A program made the translations under genes and the position numbers. Shown piece after piece: positions 45,895 to 64,000 of a DNA stretch of 64,000 bases; the stretch's first letter is position 1, and every line of letters begins with the position of its first letter. The notes under the pieces are model-generated. The model saw only the letters and a list, made by a program, of their open reading frames with translations, was not told the origin of the DNA and ran no database searches. This stretch comes from Neorhizobium galegae bv. orientalis str. HAMBI 540. Lineage in GTDB: Bacteria > Pseudomonadota > Alphaproteobacteria > Rhizobiales > Rhizobiaceae. The stretch lies in contig NZ_HG938354.1 in the NCBI RefSeq assembly GCF_000731315.1, forward strand, positions 1,364,001-1,428,000, given 5' to 3'.

Positions 45895-48093
45895 CTATGC
45901 CGGATCAAAGTCCATAACGGCGACTTCGTGATCCGCGACGGCCGACACCTCGAAAACAAGCTCGGTGCCCTGCTTTATGGCCGGAACAGAGCGGCCGCTT
46001 ACGGTCAGGCGAATGTTAGAGGATACTATTCTCGAGCCGATGCGCAGGCGGACCGTGATCGGACCGACGGGCAGAAGTTCGTCCTGTCGTCCCGGCATTT
46101 TCGCCATGATCAGGCGGTTGTTGAGATGCAGGATATAGCGACCTTGCTGCTCGTAAAGCGCCGGGCTTATGACACCGTGCCCACCTTCGAGCGACACCAG
46201 TTGTCGATCAGCGAGAGCCCAACGGACAGCGTTGGCGATGATCGTCGCATGTTCCGGATGCTCGTCCCGGGCAAAACACCGGTCGAGATCGCCAACCAGC
46301 CAGATTAGCTTGCTGCCGCCAGCCGGCTCGCGGAGCGTGATCATCGGCAGATCCGACCGGGGCTGGCGCATCCAGGAGGTTTCCGGCGGGTAGATCGGGA
46401 AATCGGGAACGAAGGTTGCCAGGACCGCCACGTCATCATCGACGCTGACGACGGGAAGGAAGCCGCCGAACGGGATCGTGTCCGTTTCCTCCAGACCGCT
46501 TAACAGCGGATGGCGTATTCCGACGGCAGCCGGCGCCGTGTTATCCGTCGGGCCATAAAGGGCAGCCCGCAGTTCCGGGACAAGGCGGAGATAGGTATGT
46601 CTTGCGGCGGCCTCGATATCCGGGTTGGCGAGCTCCTGCCCGCCCCGTGACCCGCTGCCGCGGTGCACGCCAAAAAGATCCGCCAGTCCAAAATCTCGCC
46701 TTTGATCGCCTGAACCATCATAGAGGCTGGTTTCGGACGTGGCGATTACCGAGCCACCCGCTTGCGCGAATGCCTTTACGGCGTTCACCTGATCGTCTGA
46801 CATCGCGCCGAGATTGGGCAGAATGAGGACACCCACGCGGCCGATCGCACCAGCCACGTCTTCGGCGTGGATCGGCAAATAGGTGATCCCGGCGCGGTCG
46901 AGAGCACGGATCGCTCCCCTGTAGGGATTCATCGTGCGGTCGTTGGCTTTGTCCTGGCCATGGAAGTCGTGGTTGTCCTGCGACCACACCACGCCCACGT
47001 CGGCCAGCGGCCTGCGATTGAGAAGAATATCCTCATTGGCTTCATGCCAAGAAAAGATCGGTTCTGCGCTTTTATACTGGCGCCGGTCTTCGTGGAGTGA
47101 GCCGATATGGTGCCACCACGGCTGGATGCCCCCGGCAAAGCCGGCCGACGACCATAACCTCACCTCTGCAGCGGGCATGCTTGCGAGCCGGAAGGCCGGG
47201 CTTCCGAGCTGGTATTGCGGCATGCTTTCCGGAATGAGCTTTTCCCAACCGCCCACTTCATGCAACCGCTTGCCCGCTTCCGTATTGTCGGCAAACCCAT
47301 CCACGGGATTGCGGCGCTGGTGGTCGAGCATGACGATTTCGGTGCGCGCGAGAATGGCTTTCAGATCGATGAAACGCGAACTATTGTTCAGCACGTCGCC
47401 GCTGATCATGCCCATCCACCGGCAATGTTTGCCGCCGGCTTTCATCGTGACGGAGTTGTTGAGTTCCCAGATGTCGGTGCGGCGCTGATAGTTCCAGCGC
47501 ACCCATCGCCGATAACGCTCGTCGGACCAGTCTTGAGCAGACGGCAGGTCGATGCCGGCATGAGCGCGGAACTGCTCTGCGCAATGCCGGCAATGGCAGA
47601 TGTTCTTGCGCGGAATACCGGCCCAGCTGTTGTCGGCAAAACCGTCCGGATTGCTGTGTTCTATAATTTCCCGCATGACCTGCGGCAGATATTCCCAGTA
47701 GTAGGGCGAATTGATGCAGGTGACATATTTGTCCGCCTGACGATATGGTTTTCCGGTCGCGTCGACGCAGATCCAATCTGGATGAGCGCGGTAAAAGTCC
47801 TCCGCGACCCGGTTCGAATCCATGCGGGCTATCACCTTCAGCCCCGCTTCCCGTGCATCCTTGACGATTTCGCCGTAGAGGTCCCTTTCCCCAAGCGTGT
47901 GAGCGCGATGATGAAGCGGGAAAACGGAAGGATAGTAGGCAACAATGCCGCCGGCATTGACGATCACGCCTTGGATGCGCGTCCTTTTCCAGTGAGCCCG
48001 CCACCAGGCGCCATCGTAGCGATCGGGATCGATCTCGACCAGGTTGGTCTGTCCCCAACGTGTTGCGGTTCTGTACCAGGGTTCTTCAGCCAT
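45895..48093 (-). CDS. predicted glycoside hydrolase (GHL6-like TIM barrel plus beta-galactosidase trimerisation-like domain)
   Basis: A 732-residue cytosolic protein, no signal peptide. The N-terminal half is a TIM barrel of the hypothetical glycosyl hydrolase 6 kind: IQGVIVNAGGIVAYYPSVFP, LKVIARMDSNRVAEDFYRAH, GFADNSWAGIPRKNICHCRH and RFIDLKAILARTEIVMLDHQ. CHCRHC is a conserved cysteine knot in these proteins. The middle (about residues 395-450) is a class I amidotransferase-like fold as in beta-galactosidase trimerisation domains (VGVLILPNLGAMSDDQVNAV). The C-terminus is a beta sandwich. ATG 48093 has AGGGAGG seven bases ahead. The divergent neighbour is lacI's far end. Substrate not known; alpha- or beta-galactoside or fucoside possible. 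Confidence 0.8.
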   Translation of the reverse strand: MAEEPWYRTATRWGQTNLVEIDPDRYDGAWWRAHWKRTRIQGVIVNAGGIVAYYPSVFPLHHRAHTLGERDLYGEIVKDAREAGLKVIARMDSNRVAEDFYRAHPDWICVDATGKPYRQADKYVTCINSPYYWEYLPQVMREIIEHSNPDGFADNSWAGIPRKNICHCRHCAEQFRAHAGIDLPSAQDWSDERYRRWVRWNYQRRTDIWELNNSVTMKAGGKHCRWMGMISGDVLNNSSRFIDLKAILARTEIVMLDHQRRNPVDGFADNTEAGKRLHEVGGWEKLIPESMPQYQLGSPAFRLASMPAAEVRLWSSAGFAGGIQPWWHHIGSLHEDRRQYKSAEPIFSWHEANEDILLNRRPLADVGVVWSQDNHDFHGQDKANDRTMNPYRGAIRALDRAGITYLPIHAEDVAGAIGRVGVLILPNLGAMSDDQVNAVKAFAQAGGSVIATSETSLYDGSGDQRRDFGLADLFGVHRGSGSRGGQELANPDIEAAARHTYLRLVPELRAALYGPTDNTAPAAVGIRHPLLSGLEETDTIPFGGFLPVVSVDDDVAVLATFVPDFPIYPPETSWMRQPRSDLPMITLREPAGGSKLIWLVGDLDRCFARDEHPEHATIIANAVRWALADRQLVSLEGGHGVISPALYEQQGRYILHLNNRLIMAKMPGRQDELLPVGPITVRLRIGSRIVSSNIRLTVSGRSVPAIKQGTELVFEVSAVADHEVAVMDFDPA

Positions 48094-48224: not shown

Positions 48225-49367
48225 TCAGCGATCGTCGCCTGCGGCACGCGTCTGTTGGAGCGCCACGGCCGGAGCCGCAGCATCGTCATCCCGCAGCGGT
48301 TGTGCCCTGCGATCGGTGCTGGCGCGCTTGACGATATCGAAGCCGACGTCAACGATGCGCTCATCGTCCGGCTCGCCGTCCAGCTGTCGGCGCAGGGCAA
48401 TCACCGCGTCGTGTCCGACGGTCCAGCGATGTGTTCTGACACTCGACATGGCGGGCGACGCCGCCTCCATGAAATCCTCGTCGTTGAACCCGGCGATGCC
48501 GAAATCATTCGGAACCGACAAATCGCGGGCCTGGCACTCGAAGAGGGCGCCAAGCGCCAGCACGTCGTTGTTGCAGAAAACCGCATCCATACGGGGCTCC
48601 CTGTTCCAGAGCTCGCTAATCAGTTCCCGACCCATTGCAGGTGTCGAATATTGATGCTTGTCCCAACTGCCCCGCAGCGCGAGCGCGCCAAGATCACCGG
48701 CTGCGTTCGTCAATCGCGGATCGAATATCCCGGCTTCCTCGAGCGCTTCGACGTAACCCGACAGACGCCCTTTCGAACGGCTGTTCATCCAACCGCTGAG
48801 AAAACCGATACGGCGATATCCGACTTCGATGAGATGTCGGGTCATCGCCTTGGCGGCGTTGTGGTGGGAAAATCCGATGATCTTGTTGACCGGATTGTCG
48901 GACAGATCCATGATCTGGATCACCGGGCAGTTGGCTTTTTCCAGCATCCGCCGGGAAGCGGCATTCTGATCAATGCCCGAGACGATCAGGCCGGCCGGCT
49001 TGTGCCGGAGAAGCTCAGCCAGAAGTCGTTCCTCCTCGTCCAGATCGTAACGGGTGTTGCCGACCTGGATGTGCAGCCTCGTATGGCCTATCCCGTCATA
49101 GATGCCGCGCAGTACATCCGCGAAGATGTGCTGAGTCAGGGAGGGAACGAGGACGCCGACCACATCGCTGCGGGTGGATGCCAGGGCCCTCGCATTGAGA
49201 TTAGGCACATAGCCAAGCTCGCGGACAGCGATATCGATCTTTTCGCGCAGCATATCGGAAACCAGCGATGGATCGCGCAAGGCCCGGGAGACGGTAATCG
49301 CTCCCACACCCGCCAGTGCGGCCACATCGGCTATCGTGGGTCTACCGTCCGTCCGGCGTTTCGACAT
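48225..49367 (-). CDS. LacI-family regulator of the glycoside/CoA block
   Basis: A 380-residue regulator with helix-turn-helix PTIADVAALAGVGAITVSRA, a hinge ending NARALAS and a ligand domain (VVGVLVPSLTQHIFADVLRG, IGFLSGWMNSRSKGRLSGY and NDFGIAGFNDEDFMEAASPA), closest in style to gluconate GntR-type LacI members. It has a 30-residue charged C-terminal extension. ATG 49367 has GGAG eight bases upstream. It reads towards the GHL6-like gene and is divergent from the binding-protein gene at 49645, so it probably controls both directions. Confidence 0.92.
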   Translation of the reverse strand: MSKRRTDGRPTIADVAALAGVGAITVSRALRDPSLVSDMLREKIDIAVRELGYVPNLNARALASTRSDVVGVLVPSLTQHIFADVLRGIYDGIGHTRLHIQVGNTRYDLDEEERLLAELLRHKPAGLIVSGIDQNAASRRMLEKANCPVIQIMDLSDNPVNKIIGFSHHNAAKAMTRHLIEVGYRRIGFLSGWMNSRSKGRLSGYVEALEEAGIFDPRLTNAAGDLGALALRGSWDKHQYSTPAMGRELISELWNREPRMDAVFCNNDVLALGALFECQARDLSVPNDFGIAGFNDEDFMEAASPAMSSVRTHRWTVGHDAVIALRRQLDGEPDDERIVDVGFDIVKRASTDRRAQPLRDDDAAAPAVALQQTRAAGDDR

Positions 49368-49644
49368 CTAAGGCTCCATCAAGTGGATGTCCGACGGCGT
49401 CGCATCTGCAGAGATGTTTGCCGCACGGCCATGTTTGCGATGGCTGGAATGATATCCGCCTTGCCCCAGCTAATCCATTTTCTCTGCCGGGCCTTTCGGC
49501 CTTTGTCTCCGCTCATGCTAAAAAATCGCTCTTCAGTGCTTGACGATCCGTCGATGGCAGCGCTACCATCGGATTGCATTGTTCGTCAACCGTCTTGTGC
49601 CGTGGAGGCGGAACAGGGTTCGGTACGCCCAGGGAGGGAGTGAC

Positions 49645-51261
49645 ATGGCAATATCTCGGCGCATGTTTATCGGCAGCACGGCTGCAACTATTGCTGGTGC
49701 AAGCATAGCGACCAGTTTGGGCGGATCTGCTTTCGCACAGGCACCAGACACGCTGCGGCTGGCCTTTGCCGCCCGCGGCGTACGCACCATAGATCCGGCA
49801 CGTTCGATTCAGGGCGCCGACGAATGGGCCATCATTCATATCTTCGACAAACTGGTCGAAGTGCCCCTTGGGCATTTCCCGACCAGCGTCGCCGAGGTCC
49901 AGCCAAGCCTTTCGACCAGCTGGTCGGTGACACCGGACGCCAAGAGTTGGACATTCCAGCTTCGCCAGGGCGTGAAATTCCACAAGGGCTACGGCAACCT
50001 GACGTCAGACGACGTGAAATTCACGTTCGATCGCCTGCGTAACGACAAGGCACTGGGCGGCAACCGCGTCCTGTTCGACAATATCGCGGACGTCAAGGTG
50101 GACGGTCCGACGACGGTGATCTTCACCCTCAACCTGCCGGACCCGCTGTTCATCATGGGTCCGCTCAGCCATTATTCGTCGAGCATCATTTCCCGCAAGG
50201 CGCTCGAGGAAAAGGGTGCGCCGGCCTTCGAAAAGGATCCGATCGGAACCGGGCCTTACCAGCTGGCCAGTGTCGAAAGCGATCCCTCACAGGGCGTGAA
50301 GCTGACCGTCAACAGGGATTATTTTGGAGACGCGCCAGCAACTCCCAATCTTCAGATCCGCTATATCGCCGATACAACGGCCCGGACGCTGGCCCTGTTG
50401 TCCGGCGACGTCCACATGATCGAAGGGGTGCGCGCGCCGGGCTGGGTGCCGTCGATCCAGCAGCGGAATGCCAAGCTGCACTTCGACGTGGCTTCACCGG
50501 GCAGCTTCTTCACAGTGTCGATGAACCTGACTGTCAAACCTTTCGACGATATCCGCGTTCGACAGGCGATTGCCTATCTGATCAATCGCGACGAACTCGC
50601 GAGCGCCATGGCACCGGTCAGCCAGCGCACGTATGGCCTCAATCCGCCGTCGTTTCTCGGCGGTTTCACCGCCGATACCATACCGGCGGCCGTGCGCTAC
50701 GACCACGATCCGAAAAAGGCCAAGCAACTGCTGGCCGAAGCAGGCTTTCCGAACGGGTTGTCTTTCAACGCCTATACCTCGCAGCGAGAAGACTATTCCT
50801 CGGTGATGCTGATCATCCAGGAACAGCTTCGCGCCGGCGGCATGGATATGAAGCTGGACATCAAGGACCACACGGCCTTCCATGCTGACCAGGCGAAGGG
50901 CACCAATACGATGTTCCAGCGCTCGGCAGCCTATCCTCCGGTACCGACCCAGGCGATCATCGAGCAGCTGACGGCCGCCGCTGAGGTCAAATCCGACGGC
51001 TCGGGCGGTCCGAATTTCAGCCACTACGGCGTCGCCATTCCCGGCATCGACGACATGCTGAAGAAAGCGATGCAGGAACCCAATCTCGAGAAGCGTGTGA
51101 AGCTGGTCCAGGAGATCGAGGTCAAGTTCCTGACCGACATGCCGCTCCTGCCGATCAGCGACAACGGCTATCTGGTCGTGCGCGCCGCCAATGTCGACCT
51201 CGGTTACGAACTCAAGTCGGGTTACGCCCACTGGCGTCTGACAAGAGCGAAAATCGGCTGA
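49645..51261 (+). CDS. family 5 solute-binding protein, Tat-exported
   Basis: A 538-residue periplasmic protein with a twin-arginine signal (ISRRMFIGSTAA, cleavage near AFAQAP at residue 34). Family 5 features include PSLSTSWSVTPDAKSWTFQL, DDVKFTFDRLRN, and DTTARTLALLSGDVHMIEGV. A clear paralogue (58070-59671, opposite strand) shares stretches such as IADTTARTLALLSG and MIE.VRAPGWV. AGGGAGG lies six bases before the ATG 49645. It heads a plus-strand run that leads through an unassigned enzyme to DppBCDF. The ligand is probably not a peptide, given the catabolic neighbours. Confidence 0.92.
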   Translation: MAISRRMFIGSTAATIAGASIATSLGGSAFAQAPDTLRLAFAARGVRTIDPARSIQGADEWAIIHIFDKLVEVPLGHFPTSVAEVQPSLSTSWSVTPDAKSWTFQLRQGVKFHKGYGNLTSDDVKFTFDRLRNDKALGGNRVLFDNIADVKVDGPTTVIFTLNLPDPLFIMGPLSHYSSSIISRKALEEKGAPAFEKDPIGTGPYQLASVESDPSQGVKLTVNRDYFGDAPATPNLQIRYIADTTARTLALLSGDVHMIEGVRAPGWVPSIQQRNAKLHFDVASPGSFFTVSMNLTVKPFDDIRVRQAIAYLINRDELASAMAPVSQRTYGLNPPSFLGGFTADTIPAAVRYDHDPKKAKQLLAEAGFPNGLSFNAYTSQREDYSSVMLIIQEQLRAGGMDMKLDIKDHTAFHADQAKGTNTMFQRSAAYPPVPTQAIIEQLTAAAEVKSDGSGGPNFSHYGVAIPGIDDMLKKAMQEPNLEKRVKLVQEIEVKFLTDMPLLPISDNGYLVVRAANVDLGYELKSGYAHWRLTRAKIG

Positions 51262-51427: not shown

Positions 51428-54007
51428 ATGACTGCACCGACTTCGGTCACCATTGTTCTGCCTGATGCGGATGACGCAGCGTTTCATCCGGTCCGTTGGG
51501 CGGCGACCGAACTGCAGGCGGCCCTTGCCCGCCGCAATGTGCAGGCTCAAATCGCGAGCGCCGCACAATCGGGAACGATCATCACCGTCTCCGGAGCCGG
51601 TCTCCCCGGGAACCCCGACATGGCGGTCGACCTGCCGGAGACACCGGAGAGCTTCGTTCTTACCCGTCAGGGCGATCGCATCTCGGCCTGGGGCTCCGAC
51701 ATCCTCGGACTGGTCTTCGCTTTGACTGAACTCGCCGACCGTGTGCAGTTTGCGTCCGGAGTGGATCTCTTCGAGGGAACCTACCCGCTTCTCGAGCGGC
51801 CATCCGCCCGCGTGCGCAGCATGAGCCGGATGTTTTGCAGCGAACAGGAAGACAAGGTCTGGTTTTACGACCGCCAGCAGTGGCGCGACTATCTCTCGAT
51901 GCTCGCGGCAAATCGGTTCAACCGCTTCTCGCTCGCACTCGGCTTCGGATATAACTATCCCTATCACAACCCCTGGATCACCGACGTCTACTTCTATTTC
52001 CCCTATCCATATCTGCTCGACCTTCCAGGCCATGACGTGACGGTGGTGGAGCTGCCGGAGGACGAGCGCGAGCGGAACCTCGAAATGCTCAAGTTCATCG
52101 GCCGGGAAGCCGCCAGGCGCGGCCTTGAATTCCAGCTTGCGCTGTGGACCCAGCGATATGATTTCGATGATGTGCCACGCGCCAATTATACCGTCCGCGG
52201 CGTCACCAAGGACAATCTCGCACCCTATTGCCGCGAAGCAATCACCACGCTTCTAAAGGAAATACCGGAGATCACCGGCCTTACCTTCCGGGTGCATGTG
52301 GAAGGTGGCATCGCGGAAGGCGAATACGGATTTTGGGAAGACGCGTTCGCGGGCGTTGCGGCTGCCGGCCGGCCCGTTGAAATCGACATGCACGGCAAGG
52401 GTCTCGACCACAAGATGATCGGGATTGCCCGTGACAGCGGCATGCCGATCGCCGCCTCGCCAAAATATCTCGCAGAGCATATGGGGCCGCCCTACCACCA
52501 ATCGGCAATCCGCGAGAAGGAATACCCGCCGGAGGTTGCTCGCAGCGAACGGGAGCAACTGAGCGAGGGGTCGCGAAAATTCCTGCGCTACTCCTATGGC
52601 GATCTGCTGACGGCCGACAAGGACTACAAGGTCATCTACCGCATCTGGCCGGGCACGCAGCGCGTGCTCCTGTGGGGAGATCCCGAATTTGCAGCGGGTT
52701 ACGGCCGCAGCTCGATGTTTGCCGGGTCGGACGGCGTGGAATGGTGCGAGCCGCTGGGCTTCAAGGGCCGCATGGGGACCGGCATTCCGGGCGGACGCTT
52801 CAACTATCAGAAGCAGGGCTATGCCACGCGGTACGACTGGCAGAAATACGACTATCAGTATCGGGTCTGGGGCCGGTTGCTCTACAACCCCGCCGCGCCG
52901 CGCGAAAGCTGGATGCGCTATCTCCAACAGGTCTGCGGCGATGCCGCCGAGGAATGCGAAAAAGGAATGTCCTGGGCAAGCCGTGTTCTGCCGCTGGTTA
53001 CTCTCGCGCATGGGCCATCCGCCTCGAATAACCACTATTGGCCGGAGGTCTACACCAATCTTGCACTCGTCGAAGGCTCCGGTCGACGCGCCTATGGGTT
53101 CGACATGGAAGGTCCGGTTCGGTTCGGCAATGCACCGACATTCGATCCGACGCTGTTTGCCAACGCGCGTGAATATGCCGAACTGCTGCTCGCCGGAGAA
53201 CCATCGCATCGCTTTACGCCGCTGGATGTCGCCGATTGGCTGGATGAGATGGCAAATGGCTGCGAAAGCGAAGTCCTGAAAGCCAACAGCGCGTCCAGCT
53301 TCGGCAGTATTGCCGTCCAGAGAATGCTCATCGATATCCGGATCTGCGCCGGACTGGCGCGGTTTTTTGCAGAACGCTTCCGGGCAGCATGCTGGGCTGA
53401 ACTGTTCGTCGCCACCAAGGTCACGCCGTTGATGGACCGCGTTATCGACCATGCAAGACGTTCGCTGATGGCATGGGAAAAGATTGCCGATATCTCGCGC
53501 GATCTTTACGCCGATGACCTCACCTATGGTCCGCAATCATGGCTGCGTGGATCCTGGCATTCGAGGTTGCCGGAAATGCAGGCGGAAGTGGCAGATCTGG
53601 AGTCGCTCCGCGGCGGCGGTTGCTATGAGAGCGTTGAGGCGAGCCCGAAGGCCGCAGCGGCAATCGCCGCGCTGGAGGCACGTTTTCCGGTTCTGTCCCA
53701 CCCCTCCGGCGTGACCGGTGCGCCGACCTTCAAGCCGGGCGCCGATTTCGAAGTCCTATTCGATGGAAAGGCGGAAGGTGAACCGACCCTGCATTACCGA
53801 CACATCAACCAGGCAGAGCGGTGGAAGTCGCTTCCGATGAAGGACCAGGCCGGAGGTTTTGCCGCCACGGTGCCGGGCAGCTACACCCAGTCGCGATATC
53901 ATCTGCAATATTTCGTCAGCTTCCGGCAAAATGGGCGCTCTTGTCTGTCGCCGGGATTGCAGCCCAACCTGTCCAACGAGCCTTATTTCACGTCGTTACA
54001 AAATTGA
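51428..54007 (+). CDS. large unassigned protein, glycoside-hydrolase-like architecture
   Basis: An 859-residue soluble protein without signal peptide. Residues 1-110 look like the alpha/beta domain that precedes the barrel in GH20, GH67 and GH84 enzymes (HPVRWAATELQAALARRNVQ and WGSDILGLVFALTELADRVQ). A barrel-like region follows (LSMLAANRFNRFSLALGFGY, AARRGLEFQLALWTQRYDFD, ITGLTFRVHVEGGIAEGEYG and PVEIDMHGKGLDHKMIGIAR), then an all-helical part and a C-terminal beta domain. Candidate acids are in RVHVEGG and EYGFWED, but I cannot assign a family. It sits between the binding protein and DppB, implying it acts on the imported compound. ATG 51428 has AGGATG nearby; upstream in-frame codons look non-coding. 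Confidence 0.75.
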   Translation: MTAPTSVTIVLPDADDAAFHPVRWAATELQAALARRNVQAQIASAAQSGTIITVSGAGLPGNPDMAVDLPETPESFVLTRQGDRISAWGSDILGLVFALTELADRVQFASGVDLFEGTYPLLERPSARVRSMSRMFCSEQEDKVWFYDRQQWRDYLSMLAANRFNRFSLALGFGYNYPYHNPWITDVYFYFPYPYLLDLPGHDVTVVELPEDERERNLEMLKFIGREAARRGLEFQLALWTQRYDFDDVPRANYTVRGVTKDNLAPYCREAITTLLKEIPEITGLTFRVHVEGGIAEGEYGFWEDAFAGVAAAGRPVEIDMHGKGLDHKMIGIARDSGMPIAASPKYLAEHMGPPYHQSAIREKEYPPEVARSEREQLSEGSRKFLRYSYGDLLTADKDYKVIYRIWPGTQRVLLWGDPEFAAGYGRSSMFAGSDGVEWCEPLGFKGRMGTGIPGGRFNYQKQGYATRYDWQKYDYQYRVWGRLLYNPAAPRESWMRYLQQVCGDAAEECEKGMSWASRVLPLVTLAHGPSASNNHYWPEVYTNLALVEGSGRRAYGFDMEGPVRFGNAPTFDPTLFANAREYAELLLAGEPSHRFTPLDVADWLDEMANGCESEVLKANSASSFGSIAVQRMLIDIRICAGLARFFAERFRAACWAELFVATKVTPLMDRVIDHARRSLMAWEKIADISRDLYADDLTYGPQSWLRGSWHSRLPEMQAEVADLESLRGGGCYESVEASPKAAAAIAALEARFPVLSHPSGVTGAPTFKPGADFEVLFDGKAEGEPTLHYRHINQAERWKSLPMKDQAGGFAATVPGSYTQSRYHLQYFVSFRQNGRSCLSPGLQPNLSNEPYFTSLQN

Positions 54008-55036: not shown

Positions 55037-55930
55037 ATGGTCGTCACCACCGAAAACTCCCAGCTCTCCTCACCCTTGCTCGCCCCGGAACCGAAGCCGC
55101 TTAGCCAGATCGGTTATACGTTGTTCTCGCGCCCCTCGACCATCATAGCGTTCGTGGTCGTGCTGATCTTTATTGTAGTGGCGATCTTCGCGCCGCTCCT
55201 CGCGCCATACGATCCGCTTGCCCAGAGCATCCTCAAGATCAACCGGCTCCCCTCGGCCAGCAACTGGCTCGGCACCGACCAGTTCGGACGCGACGTACTC
55301 TCGAGAATGATCCACGGCTCCCGCAATTCGTTGATTTTCGGCCTGATTTCTCCGGTACTGGCGGCGATCTGCGGGACTGTCCTCGGCGTCGTCGCAGGGT
55401 ATTTCGGCGGCATAATCGATCGGGTGATCTCGCGCCTGATCGACCTGCTGCTGGCTTTCCCCGAACTGCTGCTCGCCATCATGATTGCGGCGGTGCTGGG
55501 TGGTGGCTTCTGGAACGTCATAGCAGTTATCACCGTCGCCTTCATTCCCGGCTTCGCCCGCGTGGCGCGCGCCTCGACGCTCGCGGTCAAGCAAGAGCCC
55601 TATATCGAGGCGGCCACGGCGATCGGCCTGCGCACGCCGGTCATCATCTTCCGTCACGTCATTCCCAATATCGCAGCACCGATCGTGGTCCTGATGACGC
55701 TCTGGGTCGCCTCCGCGATCCGCCTTGAGGCGTCGCTGAGCTTCCTTGGCATCGGCACCCAGCCGCCGAACCCGAGCTGGGGCAATATTATCCGCGACGG
55801 CCTCAACAATCTCTTCGGTTCGCCATGGCCGATCATCGGCGCCGGCTTCGCTATCACCTGCGTCGTCCTCTCGTTCAACCTTCTGGGCGACGTTGTGCGA
55901 GACGTGCTCGATCCGGAGATCTCCGAATGA
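55037..55930 (+). CDS. peptide/nickel-type ABC importer permease, DppC-like
   Basis: A 297-residue inner-membrane protein. DppC marks are IFAPLLAPYDP after helix 1, NWLGTDQFGRDVLSRMIHGS, the EAA loop EPYIEAATAIGLRTPVIIFR, SLSFLGIGTQPPNPSWG and LLGDVVRDVLDPE. The start directly follows the DppB stop, and the end overlaps the DppD start by four bases (ATGA). Confidence 0.93.
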   Translation: MVVTTENSQLSSPLLAPEPKPLSQIGYTLFSRPSTIIAFVVVLIFIVVAIFAPLLAPYDPLAQSILKINRLPSASNWLGTDQFGRDVLSRMIHGSRNSLIFGLISPVLAAICGTVLGVVAGYFGGIIDRVISRLIDLLLAFPELLLAIMIAAVLGGGFWNVIAVITVAFIPGFARVARASTLAVKQEPYIEAATAIGLRTPVIIFRHVIPNIAAPIVVLMTLWVASAIRLEASLSFLGIGTQPPNPSWGNIIRDGLNNLFGSPWPIIGAGFAITCVVLSFNLLGDVVRDVLDPEISE

Positions 55931-56934
55931 CGGTGCCGCTCCTGAAGGTCGATAATCTTGCCGTCGAATTCGGCCCGAAGGCCAACCCGATCCGGGTGGT
56001 CGATGGCGTGAGTTTCGAAATCCCACCCGGAGGGGCGGTCGGAATCGTCGGGGAATCCGGATCCGGCAAGTCGATCACCTCGCTCTCCATCCTGCGGCTG
56101 ATCTCCGAACCGCCCGGACGCATCGTGCAAGGCCGTATCGAATTCAACGGGGTCAACCTGCTCGACCTCCCACGCTCGAAAATGCCCGAAATCCGCGGCC
56201 GGGACATCGCGATGATCTTCCAGGAGCCGATGAGTTCGCTGAACCCGGTCATGAAGATCGGCGACCAGATCGGCGAGGCGGTCATGCTCCACGAAGCAAT
56301 GACCGGCGAGCAAAGGCGCGCGCGTGTCATCGAAATGCTGGGGCTGGTCGGCATACCGGATCCGGCCGGACGCGTGGATTCCTATCCGCATCAGTTCTCC
56401 GGCGGAATGCGTCAACGCGTGATGATCGCCATGGCATTGGCCTGCAACCCGAAACTACTGATCGCCGACGAACCGACGACGGCGCTCGACGTAACCATCC
56501 AAGCACAGGTTCTCGACCTGATGCACAAGCTGCGTCGCACGCTGAACACTGCGGTACTGCTGATTTCGCACGATCTCGGCGTTATTGCGGATGTCTGCGA
56601 GCGGGTGGTGGTGATGTATGCCGGCAGGGTTGTCGAGGAAGCGGATGTCCTTTCGATTTTCCGCACGCCCTGTCACCCCTATACGCGGGGATTGTTGCAA
56701 TCAATCCCGCGGCTCGACGACGACCGCGATCGTCTCTACCAGATCCCGGGATCGGTGCCGCTGGCCGGATCGATCAAGACAGGCTGTCCTTTCTACGAGC
56801 GATGTTCCTTGCGCATCGAAAAATGCGCCAGGGAAATGCCGCCGATGTTCTCCTTCGGACCGGACCAACGGGCGGCATGCTGGGTGACAGCCGGACAGGC
56901 GGATGCAAAAAAGAAGGAGGCATCCCTGCAATGA
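55927..56934 (+). CDS. peptide/nickel-type ABC importer ATPase, DppD-like
   Basis: A 335-residue ATPase with Walker [29 protein letters not shown], signature [15 protein letters not shown], Walker [17 protein letters not shown] and switch ISHDLGVI. The C-terminal extension carries [14 protein letters not shown], cysteines of the kind seen in full-length Dpp/Opp ATPases. The ATG at 55927 overlaps the permease stop, so the longer frame from 55825 is not used. Confidence 0.93.
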
Positions 56935-57950
56935 CCGATCCCATCCTTCGCGTCGAAGATCTCGGCAAGACGTTCGGTTCCGGCCTCGGCTTCAGCCTCG
57001 GGAAGCGGTCCGACGATGTGCGTGCCGTCGACGGCTGTTCCTTCTCGGTCAATCACAGCGAGACGCTGGCGCTTGTCGGCGAATCCGGTTGCGGGAAATC
57101 CACCCTCGGTCGCCTTCTGCTGCGGCTGATCGATCCCACGGCTGGCAGGGTCCATTTCGACAATACCGAGTTGACCGGGCTGGCGCCCGCACAGATGCGC
57201 GACATGCGCCGCCACCTGCAGATGATCTTTCAGGACCCTTACGGCTCGCTCAGCCCCCGTCGCACGGTGGCCCAGATCATTGCCGAGCCGTTGGATGTGT
57301 TCGGCCTGGTCAGGTCCCGGCGCGACCGGCGGGAACGCGTTGCGGACCTGATGAACCAGGTGGGGCTCTCTCCGAGCTTCATGGACCGCAACCCGCGGCA
57401 GTTTTCCGGCGGCCAGCGCCAGCGCATCGGCATTGCACGCGCGATCGCGGTCGATCCGAAATTCATCGTGGCCGACGAACCCGTCTCCGCTCTCGATGTC
57501 TCCGTCCAGGCGCAGATCATCAACCTGATGCAGGACCTTCAAAGGAAGAAGAACTTCTCCTTCCTGTTCATCGCCCATGACCTTGCTGTCGTTCGCCACA
57601 TCGCCGATCGCGTGGCGGTCATGTATCTTGGTCGGATCGTCGAGATCGGGCCAAAGAAACAGATCTACGGGATGCCGCAGCATCCCTATACGCAGGCGCT
57701 GTTATCGGCAGCGCCTGAACCGGATCCCGAACGCAAGGGCAAGCGCATCATTCTGGAAGGCGACGTCCCGAGCCCCAAACGCGTGCCGCCAGGCTGCAGT
57801 TTCCATACCCGGTGCCCAATCCGGCAGGAGATCTGCAGCATCGAGCGACCGCCGCTGCGCGAAGTCGCACCGGGCCAATTGGCGGCATGTCATTTCGCAA
57901 AGCCGTTTCCCATCCCGCTCGCCAGACCGTCTCCGGCGATCCCGGCCTGA
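56931..57950 (+). CDS. peptide/nickel-type ABC importer ATPase, DppF-like
   Basis: A 339-residue ATPase with Walker [27 protein letters not shown], signature FSGGQRQRIGIARAI, Walker B FIVADEPVSALDVSVQ and switch IAHDLAVV, then HPYTQALLSAAP and the cysteine tail PGCSFHTRCPIRQEIC. ATG 56931 overlaps the DppD stop by four bases. It is the last gene of the plus-strand run; a strong hairpin follows, facing the converging gene at 58070. Confidence 0.93.
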   Translation: MTDPILRVEDLGKTFGSGLGFSLGKRSDDVRAVDGCSFSVNHSETLALVGESGCGKSTLGRLLLRLIDPTAGRVHFDNTELTGLAPAQMRDMRRHLQMIFQDPYGSLSPRRTVAQIIAEPLDVFGLVRSRRDRRERVADLMNQVGLSPSFMDRNPRQFSGGQRQRIGIARAIAVDPKFIVADEPVSALDVSVQAQIINLMQDLQRKKNFSFLFIAHDLAVVRHIADRVAVMYLGRIVEIGPKKQIYGMPQHPYTQALLSAAPEPDPERKGKRIILEGDVPSPKRVPPGCSFHTRCPIRQEICSIERPPLREVAPGQLAACHFAKPFPIPLARPSPAIPA

Positions 57951-58069: not shown

Positions 58070-59671
58070 TCAGGCGGTCTTGGTGGCGCGATGGAAACGC
58101 CAGCGGGCGTAACCGCTCTTGACCGGATAGCCGAGGTTGACGCGCTTGTTGCGAGCCACGGTGAAGGAAAGGCTCGAAAGCGCGATCAGCGGCAGATCAC
58201 GCAGGACCTGCAGCTCGATCTTCTTGCAGAGTTCGAGATAGGTGTTGTAGTCGGTCGCCTGCAGAGCCTGGCTGAGCAAATCATCGATACCCGGCATAAC
58301 CACACCGTAGTGGCTATAGGCACCGCCGCCCTTGCCATCCGGCTTGGCTTCCGATTTCGACGAAAGCTGCTGGAAATAGAGCTGGGTCGGGATCGGCGGA
58401 TAACTGGACGAGTGCATCGCAAGCGTGTTTTTGTCGCTGCGATTGTCGGCGTGATAGGCGGTATGATCGCCGATCTTCAGGTTCATGCGCATGCCGACAC
58501 CGCGTAGCTGTTCCTGCACGATCAGCATCGTCGATGAATAGTCTTCGCGCTGGCTGCAATTGCTGTCGAAATCGAAGCCGTTGGGGAAGCCCGCTTCCGC
58601 CAGCAGCGCCTTCGCCTTTGCCGGATCGGGCTTGTACTGCAATTCCGGCGGCAGGTCCTCCGTCTTGAAACCGGCCGGGAAAAAGTCCGGCTGCAGACCG
58701 GCCATGAACCCGCCCATCGGCTTCAGCGCGTCGGCGACAGCGTGACGGTCGATCGCATACATCAACGCCTGGCGGACCTTGAGGTTGTCGAAAGGCTTGC
58801 GTTTCAGGTTGATGTGGAGCGTGTTGAACGACCCCGGCTGCGTCATGTCGAATTGCAGGGTCGGATCACGCTGAAGCATCGAATCCACCCAGCCAGGCGC
58901 GCGGACGGCCTCGATCATGTCGACATTGCCGGAGAGAAGCGCCAGTGTCCGGGCTGTGGTATCGGCAATGAAAACACATTCGACGCCGGCGATCTTCGCC
59001 TTGGTTCCCCAATAGCCCTCGTGGCGCTTCATGGCTTCGCCCCACTCGCTGTCAAAACGGGTGAGTTCATAGGGACCGGTTCCCACCGCATCCGTCATGA
59101 ATTTCTCGGCACCGATCTTGTCGAAGGCTTTCTTCGAAACGATCGAGGTATTGTTGGAAAAGATCGTCGTACCCAGCAGGTTCACGTCCGGCGTCTTCAG
59201 GACGACGTCGACCTCGTACAGCCCCTTGGCGACCACATCCGCGACATTCGACATGATGGTCTTATTGGTGCCATCGGCAATGGCGCGCTTGTAGGAGAAG
59301 ACGACATCCTCCGACGTCATCTCTCCGTAACCCTTGTGGAACTGCACGCCCTGACGCAGCTTGAAGGTCCAGGTCTTGGCGTCTGACGACGATTTCCATT
59401 CGGTCGCGAGCGTCGGCACGTATTTGTCGGGCGTCGTGGCGAAATCGCCATCTTCCGGCCGGACGAGCTGTTCGTACATCTGCTCCGTCGCCCAGTTGTC
59501 GGAACCCTGTGTGGTGAAGTTGGGGTCGCTGGTGCGAGGGCCGCCCGCAGCAATGCCGATGCGAATGACATCGGTGCTCTTCTGGGCATTGGCGGTGCTG
59601 GGGATACCTGTCGCGCTCAGCGCCGTGGCGGCTGCCGCCAGTTCAAGAAATTCTCTTCTGTTCAAGCTCAT
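58070..59671 (-). CDS. family 5 solute-binding protein, Tat-exported, paralogue of 49645-51261
   Basis: A 533-residue periplasmic protein with the twin-arginine signal LNRREFLELAAAA, cleavage near TANAQ at residue 30. Family 5 phrases are RTSDPNFTTQGSDNWATEQM, KTWTFKLRQGVQFHKGYGEM, SYKRAIADG, and VGTGPYELTRFDSEWGEAMK. The C-terminus ends YPVKSGYARWRFHR, and its paralogue also ends with SGYAHWRL. It has no permease genes of its own on this strand, so it probably feeds the DppBCDF complex encoded next to it, giving one importer two binding proteins. It lies downstream of the dehydratase, hotdog and CoA-transferase genes in one direction. Confidence 0.92.
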   Translation of the reverse strand: MSLNRREFLELAAAATALSATGIPSTANAQKSTDVIRIGIAAGGPRTSDPNFTTQGSDNWATEQMYEQLVRPEDGDFATTPDKYVPTLATEWKSSSDAKTWTFKLRQGVQFHKGYGEMTSEDVVFSYKRAIADGTNKTIMSNVADVVAKGLYEVDVVLKTPDVNLLGTTIFSNNTSIVSKKAFDKIGAEKFMTDAVGTGPYELTRFDSEWGEAMKRHEGYWGTKAKIAGVECVFIADTTARTLALLSGNVDMIEAVRAPGWVDSMLQRDPTLQFDMTQPGSFNTLHINLKRKPFDNLKVRQALMYAIDRHAVADALKPMGGFMAGLQPDFFPAGFKTEDLPPELQYKPDPAKAKALLAEAGFPNGFDFDSNCSQREDYSSTMLIVQEQLRGVGMRMNLKIGDHTAYHADNRSDKNTLAMHSSSYPPIPTQLYFQQLSSKSEAKPDGKGGGAYSHYGVVMPGIDDLLSQALQATDYNTYLELCKKIELQVLRDLPLIALSSLSFTVARNKRVNLGYPVKSGYARWRFHRATKTA

Positions 59672-59700
59672 TATCTCCTCCCAAAGACAAGTTTCGCTTT

Positions 59701-60813
59701 TCAGCTTCGCCGTTTGTCCAATTCGGCGTCGTGGATCACCAGACCGAGACCCGGACCGCTCGGAACTTCGAATTTTCCATTTGACGGTTTTGGCGGATTG
59801 GCAAACGCGCCATGCATGCGCGTCGACGGATCGGCGAATTCCGCCGGCTTCGTCAGATGCATGATGGTCGCCAGAACGTGCAGGTTAGCAGCATGTGCAA
59901 TGGTCGGCTGGGTCTGATGCGGCACCAGTTCGACGCCGTGTGCGTAACAGACCGCAGCGCATTGCATGAGCCCGGTGATGCCGCCCATCTTGATGATGTC
60001 CGGCTGCACCATGCGGACACCGGCATTGATGATGTCGATCAGTGCCTGGGTGGTGTAGGTCTGTTCCGCCGCCGACACGGTGATGTCCAGACGCTGCGCG
60101 ACCTCTCCCATCGCGCGCACGTTATAGTGTTGGACCGGTTCCTCGAACCAGAGGTAACCGAGCTCCTCCAAAGCTCGGCCCACCCGGATCGCTCCGCCGA
60201 CCGAATATTGATTGTTGGCGTCGAAGGCGAGCGGGAAATCGTCGCCCACCAGCTTGCGCACTGCCTTGGCTTTGGCGATATCGCCCGGAACGTCATAGTC
60301 CTGCCGAGTGCGATCGCCGTCCCAGCGGACCTTGATAGCGGCAGGCGTCTCGGATTTCCAGCGCGCCTCGACCGCCTTCACGGTCTCGTCGACGGTGCGT
60401 CCGGCATTCCCCCCGATCGAGGCATAGAACGGTATTTCCGTGCGCCAACCGCCGCCGAGCAGCTTGAAGATCGGCTGGTCGAAATATTTGCCCTTGATGT
60501 CCCACAGCGCAATATCGAGGGCCGCAAGCGCGCCCGTGACGGCCCCTTCCGGGCCAAGCTTCACATATTTATGCAGCAGCTTGTCGTAGAGGACCGCATG
60601 GTCCAAAGCATCAACCCCAACCAGGGAAGATGCAAAGTCACGAACCACCCCGAGCGAGTGCTCGCCACCCATCATCGGCGAGGCCTCTCCATGTCCGACA
60701 ATGCCGTCGGTGGTCGTCACGCGGACGATGGCGCTACGGCGACCCGGCGGCTCGTTCGGTTCCCAGCTAACCTGAAAAGCCTCGATGGATTTGATCGTCG
60801 TCGCCGTCGCCAC
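59701..60813 (-). CDS. enolase-superfamily dehydratase or cycloisomerase, mandelate-racemase type
   Basis: A 370-residue cytosolic enzyme. The N-terminal lid is followed by a barrel with the metal ligands D in LAFDANNQY, E in YLWFEEPVQ, E in SAAEQTY, and the acid-base dyad D in VQPDIIKMGG with H in ELVPHQTQP. The second-strand base motif is IKVRW, so KxK has become KxR, typical of the mandelate-racemase subgroup that dehydrates sugar acids but with the second Lys replaced. Start GTG 60813 has GAGG six bases upstream; ATG 60825 is an alternative. The likely reaction is dehydration of an acid sugar. It lies between the CoA genes and the binding protein. Confidence 0.88.
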   Translation of the reverse strand: MATATTIKSIEAFQVSWEPNEPPGRRSAIVRVTTTDGIVGHGEASPMMGGEHSLGVVRDFASSLVGVDALDHAVLYDKLLHKYVKLGPEGAVTGALAALDIALWDIKGKYFDQPIFKLLGGGWRTEIPFYASIGGNAGRTVDETVKAVEARWKSETPAAIKVRWDGDRTRQDYDVPGDIAKAKAVRKLVGDDFPLAFDANNQYSVGGAIRVGRALEELGYLWFEEPVQHYNVRAMGEVAQRLDITVSAAEQTYTTQALIDIINAGVRMVQPDIIKMGGITGLMQCAAVCYAHGVELVPHQTQPTIAHAANLHVLATIMHLTKPAEFADPSTRMHGAFANPPKPSNGKFEVPSGPGLGLVIHDAELDKRRS

Positions 60814-61057
60814 TGCGCACCTCATTAAGACGAAATCACCCGGCCAAAGCCGATCCCAAAATCTCGATAGGAGCCATGTCCGTCCATAGTGGCCGTTAGC
60901 CCGATGCCGACATGCAGTTCGCTGACCTCGTACGACTCTCCCCGGCCGCATCGATCATGTGACCGACTTGATGCCGTCACCCTCTTCCATCCTTGCAGCA
61001 TTGCGCAGTTTGCATCCGTATGCAAGCGCTGCTTTTCGAAAAATATGGCTGAGGCAA

Positions 61058-61897
61058 TCATGGGCCGGGAGTGTCATAGGCATAGATCTGGGTGCGCCGA
61101 AAGCGCGCGACGAGAAGCCCATCCGCCAGCAGGAATTCCTCGGTCCCCAGATAATGCTTGCCCTTGCGCTGATAGACCTGGGCGACCTGCCCTACCGTTG
61201 CAAGCCGCTGGCCGGGCCTGACCTGCGCAAAGTGCTCGGTCTCGATCTCCGTCAAGACGACCGGCGAGGGAAACCGGAAACTATTATGCGCATCTCCCAT
61301 CGCAAGACGCATGGCGCAGCCGGAGTGGACGATGCCCTCACGCTTGTAGAAAGGTTCGCCCTCTCCGAAGGCGCGCAGAGATGCCTCGAAATCACCCTGG
61401 GTCAGCACCCGGTTGGCCGTGGTCAGTGACATGCCCGGCTGGAGGCTTCCTACGTCGCCTTTCGAGGGAACCTCCGGTCTCGGAATGGGCGCAAATGCCG
61501 ATATATCGGGCACGACCGGAGCCGCGTCAGGCAGGCCGACCCAGCCGCTGGCCACCTCTTCGCCCCCCTCGTTGGTCACCGAAACCTGCGCACGGCGCAT
61601 GGCTGCGTCGCCCTCCAGCATTCCGGCGCGAATGAGGAGACGACCGCCGTTATAAACGGGCCGGCGAAAGCGAGCACCCATGGCGCCGCGTCTCGTCCAG
61701 GCCTCTCCCCAGGCCTGCAGTGCAACGCGACTTATGTGACCGTAAACGAAAGCCCCCGGAATGAGCGCAGCCTTGTAACCCCGCGCCCGGGCGATGGCAT
61801 CATCGTGGATCGTGCCGACATAACGCGGATCGTTGTCGAGCTGGATATCGCCAGTCAGATCTCTGGGGAAAACTAGGGGCATATCGTCCTGATCCAT
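61058..61897 (-). CDS. MaoC-like (hotdog-fold) acyl-CoA hydratase/dehydratase
   Basis: A 279-residue cytosolic protein, about the size of a double-hotdog hydratase. The N-terminal half includes TIHDDAIARARGYKAALIPG followed by AFVYGHISRVALQAW, which matches the hydratase-2 kind of motif (A-xx-G-xx-xP-G/H). The C-terminal half has EPFYKREGIVHSGCAMRLAM and VLTEIETEHFAQVRPGQRL. Such enzymes add or remove water at a 2-enoyl-CoA, for example mesaconyl-CoA or crotonyl-CoA. It starts three bases after the stop of the CoA-transferase gene, so the two are co-expressed and probably act in sequence. Confidence 0.8.
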   Translation of the reverse strand: MDQDDMPLVFPRDLTGDIQLDNDPRYVGTIHDDAIARARGYKAALIPGAFVYGHISRVALQAWGEAWTRRGAMGARFRRPVYNGGRLLIRAGMLEGDAAMRRAQVSVTNEGGEEVASGWVGLPDAAPVVPDISAFAPIPRPEVPSKGDVGSLQPGMSLTTANRVLTQGDFEASLRAFGEGEPFYKREGIVHSGCAMRLAMGDAHNSFRFPSPVVLTEIETEHFAQVRPGQRLATVGQVAQVYQRKGKHYLGTEEFLLADGLLVARFRRTQIYAYDTPGP

Positions 61898-61900
61898 CTA

Positions 61901-64000
61901 TCAACCATCCGGAAAAGGGACCGTGGCCATAACATCGCCTGCCGAAACGCGGGCGATTTCAAGGGCAGGCAGGGCGAGGATATCTTCGAGGACATACCTA
62001 TTGTCTCCGCCGAACTGCGGGGCCGGGCGGCGCTGGCTGCCCGGCGTCCGACTGAGGTGGATCGGCAGGCCCGGATAACGATGCCGCCCGGCATCCGGAT
62101 GATCAAGCTCCGTGAAGAACCCCCGATGGGCAAGATAGGTGCTGGAGGCGACATCGGCGGCATTGGCAACCGGGGCGGCGGCCACCCCGGCATATTGAAG
62201 AAGCCTTGCGACCGCGTGCTTGTTTCGCACAGCAGTCCACTCGGACAGTATCGCAGTCAGTTCCGTTTCATGGCGCTTGCGTGCTGCAAGATCGGAGAAC
62301 CGCGGGTCGGTTGCGAGCCCAGGATGCCCGATGGCGGAACAGAGCGCCTGCCATTGCACCTGGTTTTCGGCAGCGATGACCACCCATTGGTCTTCGCCCC
62401 TTGCCGGAAAAGCGTCATGCGGCGACATGTTCGCAACGCGGTTGCCATCCGGGAGGGGGTCGACCCCGCTCTCGGCCGCCAGCAGGAGTTCCGCGCCGAT
62501 GAACTGCATCGCCGCTTCGACCTGGGGCACCTCGACATACTGGCCCCTGCCCGTCCGGTCCCGATCATGAAGCGCCGTCAAGATCGCAGCAGCCGCGTTG
62601 AAGCCGCCGATCGGGTCTAGGTAGGAAGGCCCGCTGTTTTCCGGCTGCCCGCCCGGATAGGCCATCATTGCCGACATTCCGGTTGCCATCTCCATGGTCG
62701 GGCCCAGCGCTGCGTATCCCGACATCGGTCCGCTGCCTCCGAAAGCAGGGAGCTCCGCAACGATGATGTCCGGCTTGATTGCTGTGAGGCTTTCGTAGTC
62801 GAGCCCGAGTTTTGCGAGCGTGCCGGGCCTGAAATTGCAGATTAATATATCGGCGACGGCAACGAGTCGGCGCAGCGTACTGCGCCCCTCCTCCGTCTTC
62901 AGGTTGAGGATGCAGGAGAGTTTGTTGACATTCTGCGAGTTGAAGAGAAAGGACCGGTCGAATGGCCGGGAGCCCGGTTCGCCATCCGGAAAATTGATCG
63001 GGTTCGGCCTCTCCTTGTTGAGCCGCCAGGAATTCACGCGGTTCGGTGATTCCACATGGATTGACTGCGCACCGAAATAGGCAAGGACCCGGCCCGCCAT
63101 CGGGCCCGCCCAGGCCGTGGTGATCTCGATCACTCTCAGACCATCGAGCGGCGGCAGTTGAGAAGATCTCGACGATTGCCGCGGCTGCCGGCTTTTGGCC
63201 TCCCAGACCGCGGGATCGATCTTCAGCGCCCCAAGTGCGGGCGCGCCGGATCTGACCACGCGCGGTGTGGCGCTCAAGCGGAACGGCGGGCCAAGGATCA
63301 GCCGGTCCTCGACCTTTTCCCAATAGTGTCGGCCGTTCAGGTGGCGGTTATGGATCTGCTCGGATGGACGATAGGCTTTTGCGGCAATGACCTGGGCTTT
63401 CTGCAGCCGATCCACCAGGTCCTCAGCAGGCCAGTTCGCGACCTTGTCCTGAATGATCTCGTAAAGGGTATCCCAATTTGCCCGCCGCACCTGGGGATCG
63501 GAAAAGCGCGGGTCGGTTTCCAGAGGGAGCAGATCGAGCGCGGTGCAGACCGCGCGCCAACGGTGATTGTAGATCCAGATGCAAACCCAACCATCGCGGC
63601 ACTTCACTTGCCCTGCCGGGATCGTCTGGTCCTGCCTCGTGTGGATCGAACCGTTATAGATGTGTCGCATGACATAAGGGAAACACATGGCCGCAGCGGT
63701 TTCGGCGGCATCGATCGCCACGATCTGGCCGAGACCGCTGGAATGGCGCTCGTGCAAAGCCGTCATGATGCCGATATAGGCCGCCTGCCCTGCGGCAAAC
63801 GATGCACGCTCGCCGACGCCATAGAGAGGTTCCCGCCCATAGGCGCCATTGTTGTTCATCATCCCGGACAGGGCCTGAAGAACGATCTCCGGCCCGCGCC
63901 ACTCCTTCAGCGGTCCGTCGCAACCAAAGGCGGAGATACAGACCGCGATGCAGGCGGGATTGAGGTGCATGACCTTCTCGGGATCCAAATCCTCCGGCAG
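61901..64000 (-). CDS. tandem-domain class III CoA-transferase (CaiB/BaiF family), partial at window edge
   Basis: About 700 codons are visible and the frame is open through the window edge; the real start lies outside. The N-terminal visible half has CISAFGCDGPLKEWRGPEIV and GIMTALHERHSSGLGQIVAI, then a small domain with DPRFSDPQVRRANWD, which is the second half of a CaiB-type domain. A second full domain follows from about residue 282 (PLDGLRVIEITTAWAGPMAG, LILNFRPG-like ICNFRPGTLAKLGL, YLDPIGGFNAAAAILTALHD and DPRFSDLAARKRHE). Class III transferases move CoA between acids through a catalytic Asp. The catalytic Asp is expected in each domain near the NLKTEEGR-linked region; I did not locate it with certainty. 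Two domains in one chain are unusual. Confidence 0.85.
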   Translation of the reverse strand: MPEDLDPEKVMHLNPACIAVCISAFGCDGPLKEWRGPEIVLQALSGMMNNNGAYGREPLYGVGERASFAAGQAAYIGIMTALHERHSSGLGQIVAIDAAETAAAMCFPYVMRHIYNGSIHTRQDQTIPAGQVKCRDGWVCIWIYNHRWRAVCTALDLLPLETDPRFSDPQVRRANWDTLYEIIQDKVANWPAEDLVDRLQKAQVIAAKAYRPSEQIHNRHLNGRHYWEKVEDRLILGPPFRLSATPRVVRSGAPALGALKIDPAVWEAKSRQPRQSSRSSQLPPLDGLRVIEITTAWAGPMAGRVLAYFGAQSIHVESPNRVNSWRLNKERPNPINFPDGEPGSRPFDRSFLFNSQNVNKLSCILNLKTEEGRSTLRRLVAVADILICNFRPGTLAKLGLDYESLTAIKPDIIVAELPAFGGSGPMSGYAALGPTMEMATGMSAMMAYPGGQPENSGPSYLDPIGGFNAAAAILTALHDRDRTGRGQYVEVPQVEAAMQFIGAELLLAAESGVDPLPDGNRVANMSPHDAFPARGEDQWVVIAAENQVQWQALCSAIGHPGLATDPRFSDLAARKRHETELTAILSEWTAVRNKHAVARLLQYAGVAAAPVANAADVASSTYLAHRGFFTELDHPDAGRHRYPGLPIHLSRTPGSQRRPAPQFGGDNRYVLEDILALPALEIARVSAGDVMATVPFPDG

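Follow-up and report, generated by a model that had tools for sequence, protein, structure and literature searches.

The final 18 kb of a 64,000-nucleotide (nt) stretch from Neorhizobium galegae bv. orientalis str. HAMBI 540 (hereafter the window; C2:1364001-1428000 in a two-contig, 6.46-Mb genome) carry genes for two glycosidase-like proteins, a Dpp-type importer, two solute-binding proteins (SBPs) and several enzymes of acid and coenzyme A (CoA) metabolism, and raise the question of whether these form one catabolic system. A first-pass annotation had taken them as one; all the genes it named were open reading frames lying where it had placed them, with Pfam matches for the GHL6, LacI, SBP, Dpp, enolase-superfamily and CoA-transferase proteins. 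The locus was found to comprise two gene groups, modules A and B, which lie on differing strands, have two families of operator-like sites and are separable in other genomes, and thus appear to be separately controlled. On balance, it is somewhat probable that they are two adjacent catabolic regulons on the second replicon, A acting on an acidic glycoside and B on a hydroxy acid. The earlier observation was right but clipped by the window edge, and its interpretation was half right.

Module A consists of LacI1, GHL6, SBP1, the 859-amino-acid (859-aa) gene and DppBCDF. The gene for the GHL6 protein (732 aa; 45895-48093, reverse strand) has that for LacI1 (48225-49367) upstream on the same strand. 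On the forward strand lie the genes for SBP1 (49639-51261), the enzyme-like 859-aa protein of a GH138-related family (51428-54007), DppB- and DppC-type permeases (54098-55036 and 55037-55930) and DppD- and DppF-type ATPases (55924-56934 and 56931-57950). Module B consists of LacI2, CoA-transferase, hotdog, enolase and SBP2, usually with Dpp genes of its own when found elsewhere. In the window its genes occupy the reverse strand, namely SBP2 (58070-59671), an enolase-superfamily enzyme of the mandelate racemase subgroup (59701-60825), a double-hotdog (MaoC-like) protein of 279 aa (61058-61897) and a tandem class III CoA-transferase (61901-64000), the last of which runs past the window. Its first 285-300 nt lie outside, with a start near C2:1428285-1428300, beyond which come a second copy of site B (see below) and then the divergent LacI2 gene. 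Beyond LacI2, genes that look like those for a sterol desaturase, a polysaccharide polymerase, a GH16 enzyme and a glycosyltransferase (named by look, unscanned) were seen.

For the 859-aa family 108 relatives were found, and the best 80 loci were fetched, each being the match with up to 10 kb on each side; stretches of up to 20 kb surrounding CoA-transferase, enolase and hotdog orthologues were fetched as well. The core sample was the 33 alphaproteobacterial loci with the 859-aa gene (L017-L049), some of which are short, absences being upper bounds. Conservation across relatives, which the first-pass annotation had named as a check on its single system, held for the module A genes, with GHL6 at at least 45% identity in 27/33 loci, LacI1 in 27, SBP1 in 32 and DppB, C, D and F in 29, 30, 29 and 28, respectively. 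It did not extend to the rest of the set, enolase being present in 11 and hotdog and CoA-transferase in only 6 each. Five flanking genes served as controls; two turned up in a single locus of the 33, that of the near-identical strain L017, and the other three in no locus. Gene association at the locus is therefore more than chance. The closest plasmid record, that of Neorhizobium galegae HAMBI 1141, has an 859-aa protein 97.9% identical to that of the window, and in distant loci (L048-L096, L011, and L013) little besides the 859-aa gene was conserved.

Module A was lacking, and module B had Dpp genes of its own, in a Bosea plasmid (L014) and in genomes G369, G259, G230, and G381 (L118-L121). 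The 859-aa gene was absent from the four genomes and was not found on the Bosea plasmid, the part of that genome searched. In six further genomes B was unlinked to A (L173-L178). It lay on another contig with its own Dpp genes (L174-L178) in R. populisoli, R. mayense, Rhizobium sp. BK313, Inquilinus, and Devosia nitrariae, and had no adjoining Dpp genes in R. terrae; DppF was lost at the stretch edge in L121, L177, and L178. These six are draft assemblies, and linkage is possible in Inquilinus, where both contigs are short. R. populisoli, R. mayense, Rhizobium sp. BK313 and Inquilinus have A-type loci, although GHL6 of Inquilinus is only 31% identical; in Devosia nitrariae the 859-aa gene is represented only by a 51% relative. 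The enolase gene belonged to the B operon in all B loci seen, the fragmentary L123 excepted, and a B-type enolase stood beside A without a CoA-transferase in 5/33 loci (L026, L028, L030, L044, and L045) and in L012. The two modules were joined in the Neorhizobium group (the window, L016, L017, L019, and L021), in the alphaproteobacterial metagenome-assembled genome of L038 (L122 of G183 looks alike) and in two Aureimonas genomes (L042 and L043). The two glycosidase-like proteins, importer, two SBPs, enolase and CoA-transferase/hotdog pair recur together in other lineages. The joined layouts differ, being convergent in Neorhizobium and same-strand in L038, L042, and L043.

Regions upstream of the CoA-transferase genes had in common the palindrome TTGCATCCGGATGCAA (candidate site B), and regions upstream of the SBP1 genes the palindrome ATGGTAGCGCTACCAT (candidate site A). 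The genome was searched with the patterns TTGCATNCGNATGCAA for site B and ATGGYAGCGCTRCCAT for site A, allowing at most one mismatch, with the reversed patterns as controls. Site B had exactly two copies in the 6.46-Mb genome, one at C2:1425010 ahead of the enolase gene (TTGCATCCGTATGCAA; window 61010-61025) and the other at C2:1428351-1428366 (window position 64351, outside the window) between LacI2 and the CoA-transferase. Site A had exactly one (ATGGCAGCGCTACCAT; 49554-49569), between LacI1 and SBP1, and both controls gave 0 matches in the whole genome. The end of site A overlaps a sigma-70-like -10 hexamer in a promoter-like match at 49540-49569, one of 6 such matches in the region against a shuffle mean of 5.6. 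The fetched loci (1,153,691 bases, with some overlap among loci) had B sites between LacI2 and either the CoA-transferase or the enolase gene, or else before the enolase gene or the thioesterase gene preceding it; the reversed control of site B gave 0 matches. An exact site A stood next to LacI1 or SBP1 in 26/36 A-bearing loci (the window, L010, L012, and L017-L049), while L153, beyond the 36 counted, had none. Neither an exact site A nor LacI1 was present in L038, L042, L043, L044, L048, and the short L033. Because of their position and joint absence, we infer that LacI1 binds site A and LacI2 binds site B. LacI1 is a LacI-family regulator of gluconate-GntR type (PF00356, 55.8 bits; PF13377), and scored 365 bits with NF052440, below the cut-off of 400. 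A literature search for the site sequences returned no paper that prints them.

The strongest sign of a functional union of A and B is the arrangement in L038, L042, and L043. The A genes of L038, except GHL6, lie on the same strand downstream of the B sites, without LacI1 beside them and without site A before SBP1; GHL6 follows past the other A genes on the opposite strand, and the sole A-like match falls within the 859-aa gene. Gene order in L042 and L043 is the same, and these two also lack LacI1 beside A and site A before SBP1. At the genome level, the hotdog protein was used as a B marker (threshold E 1e-40), as it has few relatives (139 at E 1e-20). The marker was found in 12/34 genomes with the 859-aa gene, six of them linked (L017, L019, L021, L038, L042, and L043) and six with it on other contigs. 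In a class sample of 385 genomes, it was found only in the window's genome (1/385), and seven more matched the hotdog protein at 28-31% identity. The contrast of 12/34 with 1/385 gave a Fisher value of 1.3e-13, uncorrected for kinship. Genome co-occurrence and the placement of A downstream of the sites of B in L038 suggest that A and B are probably used together.

The same two observations would also be expected of a single linear pathway, in which one imported acidic glycoside would be cleaved by the two hydrolases and dehydrated by the enolase enzyme before CoA activation and hydration of the product. The R. leguminosarum-type loci L012, L026, and L028, in which A is accompanied by LacI2, enolase and SBP2 but no CoA-transferase, with site B before the enolase gene and site A before SBP1, fit it as well. 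This pathway is nevertheless rather unlikely given five genomes or records that have B but no A, five others in which B is unlinked and accompanied by Dpp genes of its own, the different families of sites A and B, and the 22 genomes with the 859-aa gene that have no hotdog marker. Two distinct joined layouts, each with a single importer, the lack of LacI1 and site A in the joined L038, L042, and L043, and flanking control genes that do not track the locus argue against the contrary notion of two functionally unrelated neighboring regulons, whose co-occurrence would come from shared descent and a plant-associated life style. The enolase tree (19 rows) also calls for three switches in the 'A and B' label, although a single origin is conceivable. 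The separate sites and separable modules agree with unrelated regulons, as does the fact that much of the 12 consists of related taxa, and the notion is judged unlikely.

Two cooperating regulons, as preferred here, would most likely share an importer in this lineage. SBP1 and SBP2 matched PF00496 (247.8 and 238.7 bits), both start with an RRxF twin-arginine-type signal, in agreement with the two Tat-type family 5 binding proteins of the first-pass annotation, and they are 45-46% identical to each other. The locus has all the parts of a DppABCDF-type importer, namely SBP_bac_5 proteins, two BPD_transp_1 permeases (PF00528; DppB 143.9 and DppC 108 bits) and two ATPases with ABC_tran and oligo_HPY domains (PF00005 and PF08352). 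The joined A and B loci have a single Dpp set alongside two binding-protein genes. Module B has no importer of its own in the window lineage, and SBP2 most likely docks on the DppBCDF of module A. The closest solved relatives were 6TFQ/6TFS/6TFX for SBP1 and 6TFQ for SBP2, 6TFX being MoaA of Rhizobium radiobacter. Although MoaA is the closest solved relative of both SBPs, their ligands cannot be deduced from it. The ligand of MoaA itself is presumably a mannityl opine.

Neither the 859-aa nor the GHL6 protein has an evident signal peptide (by eye), hence cleavage would be cytoplasmic. The 859-aa protein had no match in the Pfam scan. Its predicted fold was that of GH138 across the N-terminal and catalytic domains, and a profile match to GH138 was obtained too; the GH67, GH115, GH84, and GH20 folds were rejected, with Z about half that of GH138. 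It is 17-18% identical to the GH138 alpha-D-galacturonidase BPa0997 (6HZE, 6HZF, 6HZG; rhamnogalacturonan II), but differs from it in having no visible signal peptide and in adjoining genes of an oligopeptide-type importer. In a two-step profile alignment via an intermediate family, the invariant E292 (the Glu of RVHVEGG) aligned to residue 294 of BPa0997. We take E294 of BPa0997 to be the first catalytic glutamate and E361 the second catalytic residue; the name of a PDB entry for the GH138 structure includes 'E361S'. The curated alpha-galacturonidase model NF049878 was not passed (36.8 bits, cut-off 1300). The 859-aa protein is probably a GH138-related enzyme acting as an alpha-uronosidase, an assignment made with about even confidence. 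At E 1e-20 the family numbers at least 2,238 database proteins; relatives were found in Alphaproteobacteria, Acidobacteria, Bacteroidota, Paenibacillus, and Haloarchaea. Two copies stand behind SusC/SusD-like genes (named by length and look, unscanned) in L057, L065, L070, and L076, and L065 also has a malate-synthase-barrel gene. The Haladaptatus (haloarchaeon) plasmid of L013 carries two relatives with three adjoining enolase-superfamily genes and a sugar ATP-binding cassette importer.

The GHL6 protein matched PF14871 (75.8 bits, cut-off 35) and GH42 (25.3 bits), and had no match in the NCBIfam search. The nearest folds were GH151 and GH42, with that of the GH151-type alpha-L-fucosidase 6TVK along the full length; in sequence, PDB phmmer matched 6TVK at E 4.2e-5. 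The protein is predicted to be a GH42/GH151-type glycoside hydrolase and, with less than even confidence, a GH151/GH42-like, alpha-L-fucosidase-like exo-glycosidase. The GHL6-type Mfuc3, reported to be an active alpha-L-fucosidase, has a Pfam pair identical to that of the GHL6 protein (PMC4723247). An R. leguminosarum orthologue (L012:22468-24657) is annotated as an alpha-amylase family protein, and the GHL6 protein has a weak sequence match to the alpha-amylase 4GKL (E 0.0078). A GH42-type gene was present in five distant loci, two of Marinovum, one of Devosia, and two of Paenibacillus (one scanned). Pectin or rhamnogalacturonan-II scavenging by module A, with a GH138-like galacturonidase, a GH151-like fucosidase and the enolase as a galactarate- or fuconate-type dehydratase, would agree with the two closest folds, with a closer GH138 relative in L057 (Spirosoma), with a gene annotated GH88 in haloarchaeal L013 and with talarate/galactarate dehydratase as the best NCBIfam model of the enolase, but that model was matched at only 155 bits against a cut-off of 500, and this reading is improbable.

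In module B, the CoA-transferase matched PF02515 (497 bits) in two stretches, as expected of the tandem-domain class III protein first proposed. The Asp of SYLDPIGG (D552 of A7), which we take to be the class III CoA-transferase catalytic residue, was invariant in the C-half of 6 orthologues, and no Asp was seen by eye at the corresponding position of the N-half. The best solved relative was the benzylsuccinate CoA-transferase BbsEF (9FN0; E 4.7e-54), which has PF02515 in common with it. Unlike BbsEF, however, the halves are fused in a single chain and only one of them has the Asp; no aromatic-degradation genes were noticed nearby. The possibility raised earlier, that the CoA-transferase and hotdog genes are part of some other, known operon, was borne out insofar as the operon is separate and conserved, but none of the curated models for carnitine, mesaconate or oxalate routes was passed: L-carnitine CoA-transferase (121 bits, cut-off 413), succinyl-CoA:mesaconate (279/700), 2-methylfumaryl-CoA isomerase (92/725), CoA:oxalate (248/522) and formyl-CoA transferase (278/442). 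The best curated model, succinate-glutarate CoA-transferase, was also under its cut-off (308 bits against 750). No itaconate CoA-transferase or itaconyl-CoA hydratase model was among the curated-model matches, and whether the library holds one was unchecked. A distant (28-30%) tandem CoA-transferase occurs with DppDF, SBP and DppBC in L124 and L125 (one family), without an adjoining module-B-type enolase (in L124 a 22% relative is 7.5 kb off), and is perhaps another CoA-linked acid uptake unit.

The hotdog protein, first described as a hydratase, belongs to a small family and had no match in the NCBIfam search. The window protein passed 4HBT (21.6 bits, cut-off 20.6) and was under the cut-offs of PF01575 (19.9/27) and PF13452 (20.6/22), which makes the hotdog call weaker than the other assignments. 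The L119 orthologue passed both the MaoC and FAS1_DH hydratase models (PF01575, 35.1/27; PF13452, 26.2/22). The operons of L118, L119, L121, and L178 have two additional genes, for a second MaoC protein and a 4HBT thioesterase; neither is seen between hotdog and enolase in the window, L014, or L120. A HisD-like dehydrogenase gene stands within module B of G381 (L121:11738-13045), and 62-63% identical genes occur in 859-aa loci of Marinovum and an acidobacterium (L011:1516, L063:8617).

The enolase-superfamily enzyme matched MR_MLE_C (175.8 bits) and scored 512.7 bits against 3N4E/4DWD, whose titles say only mandelate racemase/muconate lactonizing enzyme C-terminal domain protein; a literature search on these codes returned unrelated papers only. 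K166/R168, D203, E229, E255, D277, and H304 were invariant across 8 orthologues. These are presumably the KxR motif, three acidic metal ligands and Asp-His dyad also conserved in acid-sugar dehydratases of the mandelate racemase subgroup. The whole genome has 24 enolase-superfamily (PF13378) matches, 23 of them above the cut-off, and 20 DHDPS-family matches, together a rich stock of sugar-acid enzymes. A local 2-keto-3-deoxy aldolase was looked for and none was present at the locus, the nearest of the 20 DHDPS-family genes being about 28 kb from the window end. In relatives, Ldh_2, Fe-ADH and Aldedh genes adjoin B in L119 and L178 and precede a 67%-identical enolase in L154, and the enolase is preceded by Ldh_2 and Aldedh genes in L153 and by Fe-ADH and Aldedh genes in L030. 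Of the four loci with paired 859-aa copies, the two scanned, L057 and L065, both had LutB/LutC-type genes, and L065 had a lactate permease too. These neighbors suggest a lactate- or lactaldehyde-like three-carbon piece as a possible end product. The top model of the Ldh_2 neighbor was sulfolactate dehydrogenase (225.6/500), and the Fe-ADH neighbors had sulfoacetaldehyde reductase (244-254/700) near best and lactaldehyde reductase at 219-251/523; a sulfoquinovose or sulfolactate route is conceivable but not preferred.

We propose that module A, probably under LacI1, would use SBP1 and DppBCDF to import an acidic glycoside or small acidic oligosaccharide bearing a uronic acid or a deoxysugar, for cleavage in the cytoplasm by two exo-glycosidases, the GH138-related and GHL6 enzymes. 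Module B, probably under LacI2, would take up a hydroxy acid, either free or as the glycoside's acid moiety, by means of SBP2, which would share the DppBCDF of module A in the window lineage. The tandem CoA-transferase may convert the acid to its CoA thioester at the catalytic C-half, the double-hotdog protein may hydrate or dehydrate the thioester, and the mandelate-racemase-subgroup enzyme may act on the free acid by alpha-proton chemistry, either dehydrating or epimerising it. The second MaoC hydratase, 4HBT thioesterase and neighboring dehydrogenases of relatives would fit lactaldehyde, lactate or a similar three-carbon end product.

Several observations weigh against this proposal. The Fisher value is too small because the 34 genomes are related, and a nearer contrast is weaker: the CoA-transferase at at least 54% identity was found in 7/397 genomes of the order, one of them a fragment, giving 12/34 versus 6/397 (fragment excluded; 1e-10). 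Besides the 22/34 genomes without the hotdog marker, only 3/10 enolase-bearing genomes or records have the 859-aa gene. Sites A and B differ, therefore the modules need not be co-induced in this genome. L014 and the fragmentary L123 have the LacI2/CoA-transferase pair but no site B, the 65-68% identical enolases of L030, L044, L045, L153, L154, and L155 are without site B, and L039, L040, L041, and L049 have LacI1 but no exact site A, with variants in three of the four. As to the enzymes, the GH138 matches end before E361, the second catalytic residue, for which the invariant E350 is a candidate only; the neighboring dehydrogenases all score under their NCBIfam cut-offs; and the sugar dehydrogenase and aldolase of a 2-keto-3-deoxy route are not in the locus. 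To our knowledge, no member of these families has been assayed, distant relatives excepted.

A literature search, which covered titles and the starts of abstracts in part, found no described pathway with this set of genes, as the first-pass annotation had held. It is doubtful, though conceivable, that the 859-aa protein founds a new GH138-related family and that module B is at the same time the first CoA-thioester route for a glycoside-derived sugar acid. If true, the locus would give a testable entry into a large enzyme family without a Pfam model, and into a compact regulon, with two sites genome-wide, in which identifying the inducer would disclose the substrate. Among plant-associated bacteria, handling a sugar-type acid through CoA would be a novel combination, and the apparent joining of two transport regulons with the loss of one importer would leave two binding proteins to one permease.

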